Below, piece after piece: positions 47,039 through 59,557 of a DNA stretch of 60,708 nt. The translations under genes were made by a program, and so were the position numbers. The notes beneath the pieces were generated by a model. The model was given only the letters and a program-made list of their open reading frames with translations. It ran no database searches and was not told where the DNA came from. This stretch comes from an uncultured bacterium (GTDB taxonomy: Bacteria > Cyanobacteriota > Vampirovibrionia > Gastranaerophilales > Gastranaerophilaceae): contig CACXDL010000098.1 of NCBI GenBank assembly GCA_902766395.1, positions 1 to 60,708 on the forward strand. The letters are read 5' to 3'. Position 1 is the first letter of the stretch. Each line of letters opens with the position of its first letter.

Positions 47039-47962
47039 TTAAAAAATATTTTTGATAAATTTTTTCAAAATATTATTTCTGTAAAGTTTGATGTCTTGAA
47101 AGTTAATGGCTTTTTTGTCTTTGCATACAATAGTTAATGAAGATTTCGTTTTTGAGATAATCTCAGCCGGTTGTCCGCATACAGTGTCAACAACTTGAAA
47201 ATTATATGGATTTACTATATAAAACTTATTATTATATGTAATATAGGTTGGTAAAAAAGGATGGAGTGCTCTTATAGTTCTGGAGATTTCATCTGAAGTT
47301 TGATTTTTAAAATCAAGCATGCGTTCTTCACCTGAAATGTGAGGGTAATACGAAGCATATCTCTCATCTTGATTTATGGGGGCAATGATTTTGTAATTCA
47401 TGTCGTTAAGTAATTCTGTAAGTGTTGTTCGGGCGGTAATAACAGTTCTCTCTCTTAGTTCTTTTGAGGTATCTGTTTCATATATTGGTACTCTCTCTTG
47501 TCTAAGTATTTCTCCAGCGTCATAACGTTCATTTACAAGATGAATTGTTACACCAGAGAATTTTTCCCCGTGTAAAATAGTTTGCATATAAGGGTTTGGC
47601 CCTCTGTATTTTGGTAAAAGTGACGGATGAATATTAATTGTTGCGATCGTAGGTACTTTGTATGTCTCAGGGGTTATTTTTTCTTTCCATGTTCCGACAA
47701 TTAACAAATCAACGTTTAATTTAATTAGTAAGTTTCTGAATTCTTTGCTGTTTACTGACTTAAATCTGTATTCAGGTATTTTGCTTTCTTTTAGGAGTGT
47801 GACTTCCGGAGCAGGTTTAAAAAAATCTCTGAAAAAAAGTCTGATTTTAGACATTGTAGTTTGTTCATATCGTAATACCCCGCAAATTTTAGCCCCGGCC
47901 TCCTGAGCGCCAAGTATAATATTTGCAAGCATTATTCCTTTCCCAATAATAAATACCTTCAT
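47039..47962 (-). CDS. Formyltransferase family protein (Fmt/ArnA-like)
   Basis: A 307-residue protein with the catalytic formyltransferase motif INIHPSLLPKYRG (Asn, His) and VTIHLVNERYDAGEIL (Asp), followed by a C-terminal beta domain like FMT_C. The N-terminus (MKVFIIGKGIM) is not the usual Fmt start (MGTPxFA), so it may formylate a sugar nucleotide or other amine rather than Met-tRNA; no sugar genes are adjacent. ATG at 47962 has TATAAT 6 nt upstream, which supports it over 47989. Confidence 0.75.
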   Translation of the reverse strand: MKVFIIGKGIMLANIILGAQEAGAKICGVLRYEQTTMSKIRLFFRDFFKPAPEVTLLKESKIPEYRFKSVNSKEFRNLLIKLNVDLLIVGTWKEKITPETYKVPTIATINIHPSLLPKYRGPNPYMQTILHGEKFSGVTIHLVNERYDAGEILRQERVPIYETDTSKELRERTVITARTTLTELLNDMNYKIIAPINQDERYASYYPHISGEERMLDFKNQTSDEISRTIRALHPFLPTYITYNNKFYIVNPYNFQVVDTVCGQPAEIISKTKSSLTIVCKDKKAINFQDIKLYRNNILKKFIKNIF

Positions 47963-47974
47963 AAGACTATTATA
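47963..47974 (-). promoter_or_regulatory. Leaderless-type promoter box of the formyltransferase gene
   Basis: On the minus strand TATAAT (47974-47969) is followed by 6 nt and ATG; it directly abuts the terminator of the upstream gene. Confidence 0.6.
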
Positions 47975-48016
47975 AAACAAAAAGAGCAATGAAATAAATC
48001 ATTACTCTTTTTGTTT
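47975..48016 (-). terminator. Terminator of the gene at 48034
   Basis: An 18-bp stem (47975-47992 with 47999-48016, one wobble) with a 6-nt loop and T run on the minus strand. Confidence 0.85.
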
Positions 48017-57136: not shown

Positions 57137-57819
57137 TGAAAACTGTTGCTGAAATTTTTGGTGTAGAAATCACAAATCCATCGCTTTACAATACTGCATT
57201 AACTCACTCTTCATATACTCAGGATAATAATCTTCCTTATACTGAGTGTAATGAGCGTTTGGAGTTTTTGGGAGATGCTGTTTTAAAATTAACGGTATCA
57301 AATGTTTTGTTTAAAATGTATCCCCAAACAAATGAGGGAGAAATGTCAAAAATACGTTCGATTGTTGTTTCGGATAATACTCTTGCAAAAATCGCAAAAG
57401 AAAAAGGGCTTGATAATTTGCTAATAATGAGTAAAAGTGAAGAAAAACAAGGAGGACGCAAGCTGGATTCTCTTTGTGCTTGTGCCTTTGAGGCTATATT
57501 AGGGGCATATTATTTAGATGGGAAATTGAGTGAAATTTGTTCTTTTATCGAAAAAACTTTTACCCCTTACATAGTTGAGGTGAAAGATAATTTCGTAAAA
57601 TATAATGCAAAAGAGATTTTGCAGGAATACACTCAGGGACTAACGAAAACTCGTCCTGTATATGAAGTCGTGAGTGAAACAGGTCCGGAGCATAAAAAAG
57701 AATTTGAGGTTTCGGTTTCATATAATGATGAAATTCTTGCAACCGAAAAGGGCAGTACAAAGAAAGATGCAGAACAAAAAGCTGCATACAGTGCATGTAT
57801 AAAATTAGGGGTTGTGTAA
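57136..57819 (+). CDS. rnc: Ribonuclease III
   Basis: This dsRNA endonuclease matures rRNA. The 227-residue protein has the catalytic signature NERLEFLGDAVL at about 36-47, a second acid pair (CAFEAILGAYYLDG) and a C-terminal dsRBD (KEILQEYTQG, KKDAEQKAAYSA). It overlaps the cdsA stop by 1 base. Confidence 0.96.
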   Translation: MKTVAEIFGVEITNPSLYNTALTHSSYTQDNNLPYTECNERLEFLGDAVLKLTVSNVLFKMYPQTNEGEMSKIRSIVVSDNTLAKIAKEKGLDNLLIMSKSEEKQGGRKLDSLCACAFEAILGAYYLDGKLSEICSFIEKTFTPYIVEVKDNFVKYNAKEILQEYTQGLTKTRPVYEVVSETGPEHKKEFEVSVSYNDEILATEKGSTKKDAEQKAAYSACIKLGVV

Positions 57820-57820
57820 T

Positions 57821-58453
57821 ATGACTATAATATCTCCGTCAATATTATCTGCAGATTTTGCAAATCTTGAAAGAGATATAAAAATTGTTGAAAATGCAGG
57901 AGCAGACTGGATTCATGTGGATGTAATGGACGGGCATTTTGTTCCTAATATTACAATTGGGGTTCCTGTAGTAAAATCACTCAAAAAAGTAACTACATTA
58001 CCATTAGATGTTCATCTGATGATCGAAAATCCTCAGAATTATATAGATGCATTTGCCCGTGCAGGTGCTGATATTTTAACATTTCACTATGAAGCAGTTT
58101 CAGATCCTGTTAAGGTAGTTGATTTAATAAAAACAAAAAATATAAAGGCAGGAATTTCTATCAAGCCAAAGACAAGTCCTGAGGTTCTTTTGCCTTATTT
58201 AAATAAAGTTGATATGATCCTTGTGATGACGGTCGAACCAGGTTTTGGCGGACAGGAATTCATGAGTGATTGTGCAAAGAAAATTGAATACCTTCGCAAA
58301 AATGCTTCTGAAGATTTGATTATTCAGGTTGACGGTGGTATCAATGCTCAAACAGGAAAAATATGCAAAGATTACGGTGCAAATTCATTAGTGGCAGGGA
58401 GCTACATTTACAATTCGTCTGATATAAAGGCTGCTATTGATTCTTTAAAATAG
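57821..58453 (+). CDS. rpe: Ribulose-phosphate 3-epimerase
   Basis: A 210-residue TIM-barrel enzyme of the pentose phosphate pathway. SPSILSADFANLERD, WIHVDVMDGHFVPNI (metal ligands), LDVHLMIENP, MTVEPGFGGQ and QVDGGINAQT are present. The ATG at 57821 follows the rnc stop; a GTG three codons earlier (57812) lies inside rnc. Last gene of the operon. Confidence 0.96.
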   Translation: MTIISPSILSADFANLERDIKIVENAGADWIHVDVMDGHFVPNITIGVPVVKSLKKVTTLPLDVHLMIENPQNYIDAFARAGADILTFHYEAVSDPVKVVDLIKTKNIKAGISIKPKTSPEVLLPYLNKVDMILVMTVEPGFGGQEFMSDCAKKIEYLRKNASEDLIIQVDGGINAQTGKICKDYGANSLVAGSYIYNSSDIKAAIDSLK

Positions 58454-58936
58454 TTACTTACATTTTCCACAAGCGCTACAACCGTTTCCGCGTGAACAAT
58501 TGTGACTATATAAATCTTGGAAATCAAATAATCTGTCATTCAAAAAAGCGTCTACAATTGGAACAATAAAGTATTTTTCCAGATTTATAATATTTTCTTT
58601 CAATTCGTCTAAATGAGTATCAATCCCAATTAATACAGGATATTGGGCAATTATTCTTTCTGAATTATAGAATGTTACACCACTAACTTTTACACCTGAG
58701 AGATATGCTTTTTCTATTGCATTTTCTTCATCAAATGCAGGTAACAGAGAAGGATGAATTACAATTGTTTTATCCGGCAAATTTTCTCGCTTTCCATTTG
58801 AAATAATTAAATCAAATTTACCTTTTAAATCTTCAATATTCGCGAATTGTGTTATTTTAATTTCTTTATCTGCTGCATATTTATTCAAAGCTTGAAATAT
58901 GTAATTTTCATTATCTACAATAGCAATTTGTTTCAT
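58454..58936 (-). CDS. PurN-like formyltransferase homologue with C-terminal Cys cluster
   Basis: A 160-residue protein. VIHPSLLPAFDEENAIEKAYLSG and VSGVTFYN match the centre of PurN (phosphoribosylglycinamide formyltransferase), but the N before IHPSLLP is replaced, the Asp that follows VTF in the active enzyme is missing, and the N-terminal nucleotide-binding half is reduced. The C-terminus has CSRGNGCSACGKC, a metal-cluster-like motif absent from PurN. Probably not a normal transformylase. Its ribosome site AAAGAGG lies in a hairpin. Confidence 0.7.
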   Translation of the reverse strand: MKQIAIVDNENYIFQALNKYAADKEIKITQFANIEDLKGKFDLIISNGKRENLPDKTIVIHPSLLPAFDEENAIEKAYLSGVKVSGVTFYNSERIIAQYPVLIGIDTHLDELKENIINLEKYFIVPIVDAFLNDRLFDFQDLYSHNCSRGNGCSACGKCK

Positions 58937-59002: not shown

Positions 59003-59557
59003 TTAATCTTTGTATTTATAGCTCAAAAGACTGTATGAATCAGGCTCTGAAGATGATTCGCTGCCATAAAACACTGTCATATCTGATGTTGCTTTTCTAT
59101 AGTTTGCCTGATCCAATTTTTCTTGTTTTTGACTATCGTAAGTATATGCAGCGATTTCTGCGTTAGAAACCCTTCCATCATGATTTTTATCAATATCATT
59201 AAAGTGTTCAAGAATTTTATTTATTGTCGCGGTTGAAAAAGCACCACTCGCAGCCAATTGTGTTAATTCATTTCTTGTAATTCCGGAAGTCGAAAGAGTT
59301 TGTGTAAATTTTTCCATTTCTTTTGCACTTATTTTTCCGTCCTTATCCTTATCAAGATTTGCAAAATTATTTTGCAAATATGCGGCAAAAGGCTGATTTA
59401 GTGTTAAATAATTTGTATTATCCTTCTGTGCTGCGGCGATATTTTTAGATGTAACACCATCTTTCGGATACAATGATGCTAAATATGCATATGTATTGTT
59501 TAATCCCGCATTGATGCTGTTAATAATAGATGTTCCTGCTGATGGTGATAAAGCCAT
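59003..59557 (-). CDS. EF-hand calcium-binding protein
   Basis: A 184-residue protein with two canonical EF-hand loops, DKDKDGKISAKE (about 70-81) and DKNHDGRVSNAE (about 123-134), both with Asp at 1, 3, 5 and Glu at 12. The remainder is helical and Ser/Thr-rich; no signal peptide is seen. Calcium sensing or buffering is inferred. It has an AAGGA site and follows the BI-1 gene, from which a terminator separates it. Confidence 0.85.
   Translation of the reverse strand: MALSPSAGTSIINSINAGLNNTYAYLASLYPKDGVTSKNIAAAQKDNTNYLTLNQPFAAYLQNNFANLDKDKDGKISAKEMEKFTQTLSTSGITRNELTQLAASGAFSTATINKILEHFNDIDKNHDGRVSNAEIAAYTYDSQKQEKLDQANYRKATSDMTVFYGSESSSEPDSYSLLSYKYKD

Follow-up and report, generated by a model that had tools for sequence, protein, structure and literature searches.

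A Cys-tailed PurN-like protein of Gastranaerophilales as a candidate metal-binding pseudoenzyme

The locus, the predicted fold and the active site

The window, i.e. the whole stretch of 60,708 nucleotides that was analysed, carries on its minus strand (58454..58936) the coding sequence of a putative Cys-tailed, PurN-like pseudoenzyme of 160 aa, as judged from the open reading frame, its homologues, an AF2 model and a fold search. The frame starts with ATG and its C-terminal end is CSRGNGCSACGKCK. It has been confirmed as a genuine gene, conserved in Gastranaerophilales ("Melainabacteria"), whose product has the PurN/GART fold. The convergent rpe gene for ribulose-phosphate 3-epimerase (57812..58453, plus strand) abuts it end to end. 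Upstream on the same strand, across a gap of 66 bp, lies a gene for a protein with two EF-hand regions (59003..59557, minus strand), which is possibly co-transcribed with it and which adjoins it only in its own genome among those compared. In the promoter and terminator scan, promoter-like sites were found at chance level and the sole terminator-like site does not adjoin the gene. Elsewhere in the window (47039-47989, minus strand) a second formyltransferase is encoded; it is 316 aa long, combines a Formyl_trans_N with a Formyl_trans_C domain, and is not the fmt-like gene that this genome carries on contig C54.

Residues 41-120 of the protein matched PF00551 (Formyl_trans_N) with an E-value of 1.2e-8 and 35.3 bits, against a Pfam cut-off of 26.1, whereas the PurN profile TIGR00639 gave 38.3 bits against an NCBIfam cut-off of 150.1 and the PurU profile TIGR00655 gave 27.9 bits against 286. 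PurN chains were the first matches in the PDB by phmmer. Structure prediction, which the earlier note had proposed as a check, gave a GART core with a mean pLDDT of 89.4 (from an alignment of 33 same-genus sequences), and the values fell below 50 only at residues 148-158, inside the Cys tail. GAR formyltransferases were placed on top by Foldseek (3p9x, E 7.1e-9), and the best PDB match by VIA-align was also a GART (3av3, Z 14.0 over 132 residues, rmsd 2.5). With GART top matches and high pLDDT, the GART fold appears in the model to outlast the deletions described below, while the tail is disordered.

The central PurN motif claimed by the earlier note is present (H61-P-S-L-L-P66, in the kept core H61-PSLLPAF at 58733..58756, minus strand). 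His108 and Asp144 of PurN have catalytic roles and form a triad with Asn106 (PMC3261824, PMC4786211). In the alignment the equivalent of His108 is kept, Val59 stands at the position of Asn106, and the loop bearing Asp144 is deleted at S92-E93-R94-I95 (58652..58663, minus strand), so that the triad reads Val, His, deleted. The reported absence of the catalytic Asn and Asp thus holds for this protein, but the loss of Asn106 is no feature of the family, as 28 of 33 same-genus homologues retain it. The N-terminal half is reduced as had been described: about 45 residues are gone at 58811..58843 (minus strand) when short and long forms are aligned, and the GxGSN loop, which holds the GAR phosphate, is absent, with DNENYI in its place. 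The AGYMRIL segment has also been lost. Outside the active site, the segments AQYPVLIG, THxDE and VFDFxDLF are conserved.

The C-terminal cysteine tail

The protein ends in the cluster C147-x5-C153-x2-C156-x2-C159 (58460..58498, minus strand), which is conserved across family members. C156 and C159 do not vary in the 33 same-genus sequences, and C147 is kept in at least 90% of them. The earlier note had asked for a check on all four Cys; what is supported is a core of three, C-x(2-6)-C-x(2-3)-C, present in 58/58 homologues classed as purM-less, most of which hold four Cys. At least three Cys were present in the last 30 residues of all 67 tailed family members, whereas among the 659 other ORFs of 100 aa or more from the same loci just 2 had three or more Cys in their last 20 residues, which argues that the tail is not due to chance. 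The tail codons are mixed across the family (TGT 136, TGC 124; Gly by all four codons), which indicates that the constraint acts on the amino acids. A cause at the DNA or RNA level, through the overlap with the purD start seen in some genera, was considered and rejected, because same-genus loci have no purD at that place and the codons are mixed. The spacing C-x(2-6)-C-x2-C, often followed by His, would suit metal ligation better than a simple disulfide, and the tail may plausibly bind Zn or an Fe-S cluster.

A search of 383 genomes of the order placed tailed members in many of the family's genera; a contig search with the window protein alone gave 0 matches and the family alignment gave matches. 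Among 80 retrieved loci, the tailed records were labelled Gastranaerophilales, Melainabacteria, 'uncultured bacterium', Heliobacteriaceae, Clostridiaceae or Clostridia, and at least one record under such another label (JAISCP010000028.1) is a Gastranaerophilales genome in this study. In contrast, the PurNs of Bacillus type and those of Paenibacillus, Enterococcus, WOR-3 and others among these loci, ordinary PurNs of other phyla, have no Cys cluster at their end. Within the genus the gene is present in 32 of 36 genomes, own genome included, and absent from G005, G020, G030 and G034; further absences in the family include G067, G074 and others. One relative (G001) possesses, besides its syntenic copy, a second and more diverged tailed PurN-like gene (L039:3224-3772, G001:C27).

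Purine synthesis and gene order among the relatives

PurM, PurF, PurT and PurN gave no match above cut-off in any of the 36 genomes of the genus, own genome included; the rest of the purine pathway, represented by PurF and PurM, was thus not found in these genomes. The own genome is a 92.8% complete MAG, and the 35 relatives agree with it on the missing PurF and PurM. The same searches recovered PurM, PurF and full PurN in outgroup families and therefore work. The PurF matches in the genus span some 200 residues of ORFs that are about 620 aa long; this size and coverage suggest another glutamine amidotransferase. PurT as a substitute GAR formyltransferase was rejected, as no genome had it above cut-off.

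Gene order in the relatives supports descent of the family, in place, from the purN of a purM-purN-purD operon. In g27 (L155) an intact tailed PurN is encoded in the order oadA-oadB-purM-purN(Cys)-purD-glgC; g25 (L150, L151) has this order minus purM, with purD decayed to about 250 aa, and g22 (L147, L148) and g26 have lost purM as well as purD, which leaves the tailed purN between oadB and glgC. Likewise, glgA-purM-purN-purD of L159 in g30 is matched by glgA-[short tailed PurN]-[short PurD] in L160. Most loci of the window's genus read birA-oadG-oadA-oadB-[gene], and the neighbours in the genus, partly named by eye, are birA-oadGAB, ATP synthase genes and an acetolactate-synthase-like gene. 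The own-genome copy has been relocated beside rpe and the EF-hand gene, so its orthology rests on its sequence, which is 54% identical to that of L002 in the ancestral place. By synteny and alignment, the family is orthologous to an enzyme with an intact active site and has lost catalytic residues.

Several observations were made on the genes around these loci. In purM-less g25, g28 and g30 a truncated and strongly diverged PurD of about 245-283 aa directly follows the tailed relic (L151:3117-3854, L150:1753-2508, L156:3316-4023, L160:3017-3808, L161:1806-2657, L162:1856-2707), its frame overlapping the Cys-tail codons in several of these loci; no match to it was found in the own genome. PurN-PurD fusions of 574-689 aa stand beside purM in g36, g33, g43 and g38 of the same family (L175:2933-4657, L176:1840-3585, L177:3162-5231, L178:2253-3992). 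The tailed relic of G022 is preceded, at a distance of 1 bp, by a dihydropteroate-synthase-like (Pterin_bind) gene (L080:2076-3221) that is possibly co-transcribed with it; in G026 the homologue of this gene adjoins the relic on the opposite strand.

In the classification by alignment, the purM-containing class comprised 12 untailed and 8 tailed PurNs, and all 20 have GxGSN (or GTN) together with Asn-His-Asp. In the purM-less class the Cys tail was present in 58/58 and GxGSN was intact in 0/58. The triad was kept in 7 of the 14 long tailed forms of this class, whereas the 44 short tailed forms showed one apparent triad and 43 of them miss Asp144. These rows are related by descent, so the counts are not independent trials and the repeated losses in place are the stronger argument. 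G362 was classed as purM-containing by the intact purD after its purN, at which its contig ends, and G203 and G059 were classed as purM-less by locus and genus, purM having been searched in all other classified genomes; minus these three, the figures are 19/19 against 0/56 for GxGSN and 6/12 for the triad in long forms. Several of the PurM matches scored as present fall short of the curated cut-off, yet they extend over the full protein with E < 1e-50. Since tailed PurNs with an intact active site occur in purM-containing relatives, the tail came first, while the enzyme was still active, and the loss of the active site followed. The view of the earlier note that the cluster is a new C-terminal feature needs correction, as relatives with an intact active site already bear it.

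Retention of the gene goes with the tail, all PurNs seen in purM-less genomes being tailed. Among 10 loci with untailed or fused PurN (four from genomes outside the tabulated set) purM lay within 1.5 kb in 10/10, and every outgroup genome with PurN above cut-off also has PurM. In G201 an untailed, intact PurN stands beside purM, and elsewhere a tailed copy, counted in neither class, has a broken GSN loop and carries Gly in place of Asp144. Homologues without the Cys motif and homologues with intact catalytic residues, both of which had been named as possible evidence against the pseudoenzyme, do occur in distant relatives; the former are ordinary PurNs of purM-containing genomes, and the latter are tailed proteins that also keep the GAR loop, again in purM-containing genomes, so the reading is not refuted by either. 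Taken from the sequence data, the fold, the lost GAR loop and Asp144, the lost pathway and purifying selection in relatives strongly support a PurN-fold pseudoenzyme.

Same-genus pairs of short forms gave dN/dS values of 0.118-0.281, which indicate maintenance by purifying selection in these relatives; the window gene was left out, its nearest relative being too distant. The short forms are all united in the tree (100/99), on long branches; taken by itself, this would point to one truncation. A single truncation for all of them was nevertheless distrusted, as long and short forms of g30 share one operon site and, on the core columns alone, holding g30 together gave a slightly higher likelihood and was not rejected (p-AU 0.53). 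Holding g22 together, on the same columns, was likewise not rejected (p-AU 0.18), and its long and short forms also occupy the same site. Truncation has thus probably occurred more than once.

Proposed function and competing explanations

Our preferred explanation, held with moderate confidence, is that the tailed PurN gained a second, tail-dependent function, probably the binding of a metal or Fe-S cluster, which has outlived purine synthesis. In the ancestor purN would have lain within the purM-purN-purD operon, and a PurN with an intact GAR formyltransferase site would have acquired the short C-terminal Cys-cluster tail. The de novo purine pathway would have been lost later, with purM and purD deleted or shrunken, while the tailed PurN stayed under purifying selection and gave up the GAR-phosphate loop, the Asp144 loop and part of the N-terminal half, most likely more than once. 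What remains would be a folded GART core with a Cys cluster whose kept function is to ligate a metal (Zn) or Fe-S cluster; the inert core may serve as a carrier or docking platform, and the protein may act as a sensor, as a store of metal or as a small metal chaperone. The wider proposal, of a new metalloprotein family in which a second, metal-dependent function was gained with the Cys cluster while the enzyme was active and then outlived the pathway, the enzyme being stripped in parallel to a minimal GART scaffold in several genera of gut Gastranaerophilales, we regard as evenly poised. Against the preferred explanation, no conserved neighbour gene indicating metal or Fe-S metabolism was found in the compared loci, the function is dispensable since the gene has been lost from several species and genera, and Asn-His-Asp survives in some purM-less long forms, which may thus retain a residual folate chemistry. 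A conserved partner gene was sought and rejected, the oad part being old synteny shared with purM-containing genera and lost in the own genome.

A regulatory or scaffold pseudoenzyme, in which the GART core binds a partner (e.g. another protein related to folate or purines) and the cysteines of the tail form a redox switch or disulfide handle, is unlikely, though it is the strongest competitor. It agrees with the core conservation outside the active site, with the truncated PurD that stays beside the gene in g25, g28 and g30, and with the persistence of a PurD-like protein (about 415 aa) in most of the genus's purM-less genomes; but the genera share no conserved partner gene, the truncated PurD is unmatched in the own genome, and the tail spacing would fit a metal better than a disulfide. 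It is improbable that the protein still works as an enzyme, be it a minimal 10-formyl-THF hydrolase or a formyltransferase acting on another amine, with no need of the GAR loop or of Asp144. His108 persists in most members and Asn106 in most of the genus, half of the purM-less long forms retain the triad, and PurU (TIGR00655, formyl-THF deformylase), with a related catalytic domain, does not need the GAR site. The window protein, however, is far shorter than PurU and has neither Asn106 nor the catalytic Asp, the latter being gone in nearly all short forms, and AGYMRIL has been lost. A functionless relic decaying since the loss of purine synthesis would explain the missing pathway, the eroded active site and the relatives without the gene, but it is the least probable reading, given dN/dS of 0.12-0.28 in same-genus pairs, open frames with tail cysteines in every purM-less member and no untailed PurN seen in a purM-less genome.

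Returning to the metal-binding explanation, the closest known system by ancestry is PurN itself (TIGR00639; PDB 3av3, 3p9x, 1cde), with the same fold, the core HPSLLP and orthology through purM-purN-purD synteny in relatives; unlike it, the window protein lacks GxGSN, Asp144, about 45 residues of the N-terminal half and the pathway. For the tail, the His/Cys-rich C-terminal tail of SlyD binds Ni and Zn, and H. pylori HspA has been described as a nickel chaperone via its C-terminal extension (PMC10653786). These are likewise folded domains of other ancestry with a short Cys-containing C-terminal tail, and a conserved terminal Cys cluster was found here in 58/58 and 67/67 sequences; the likeness is one of analogy and not membership, as the folds differ and the putative metal site here is a cluster of 3-4 Cys.

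Pseudoenzymes are a known kind of protein, and to our knowledge most of them have been seen only after the fact. Here the living relatives show each of the stages, from an ordinary PurN to a Cys-tailed one, then a tailed one whose site erodes after pathway loss, and then a minimal tailed core. This makes it testable whether a moonlighting function shields an enzyme from loss when its pathway goes. If the proposal is true, a new metalloprotein family with living enzyme-to-non-enzyme intermediates would be at hand. The family also flags proteins that annotation pipelines may name formyltransferases though the required residues are absent. Neither a PurN relic nor a Cys-tailed PurN was found in the open-access literature searched. 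The 'extra' archaeal PurD-like proteins, judged not to be GAR synthetases (PMC3261824), are likewise homologues of a purine enzyme and not the enzyme; they differ in deriving from another enzyme and in that no Cys tail is described for them there.

As a minor observation, the PurD-like protein of about 415 aa scores below the PurD cut-off and occurs in nearly all genomes of the genus (own copy G000:C4:16962-18164); the copy at L266:4448-5683 gave 148 bits against the PurD cut-off of 288. Several outgroups carry it in addition to a normal PurD, and in L267 and L268 its gene adjoins dnaJ-like and queE-like genes, named by eye.
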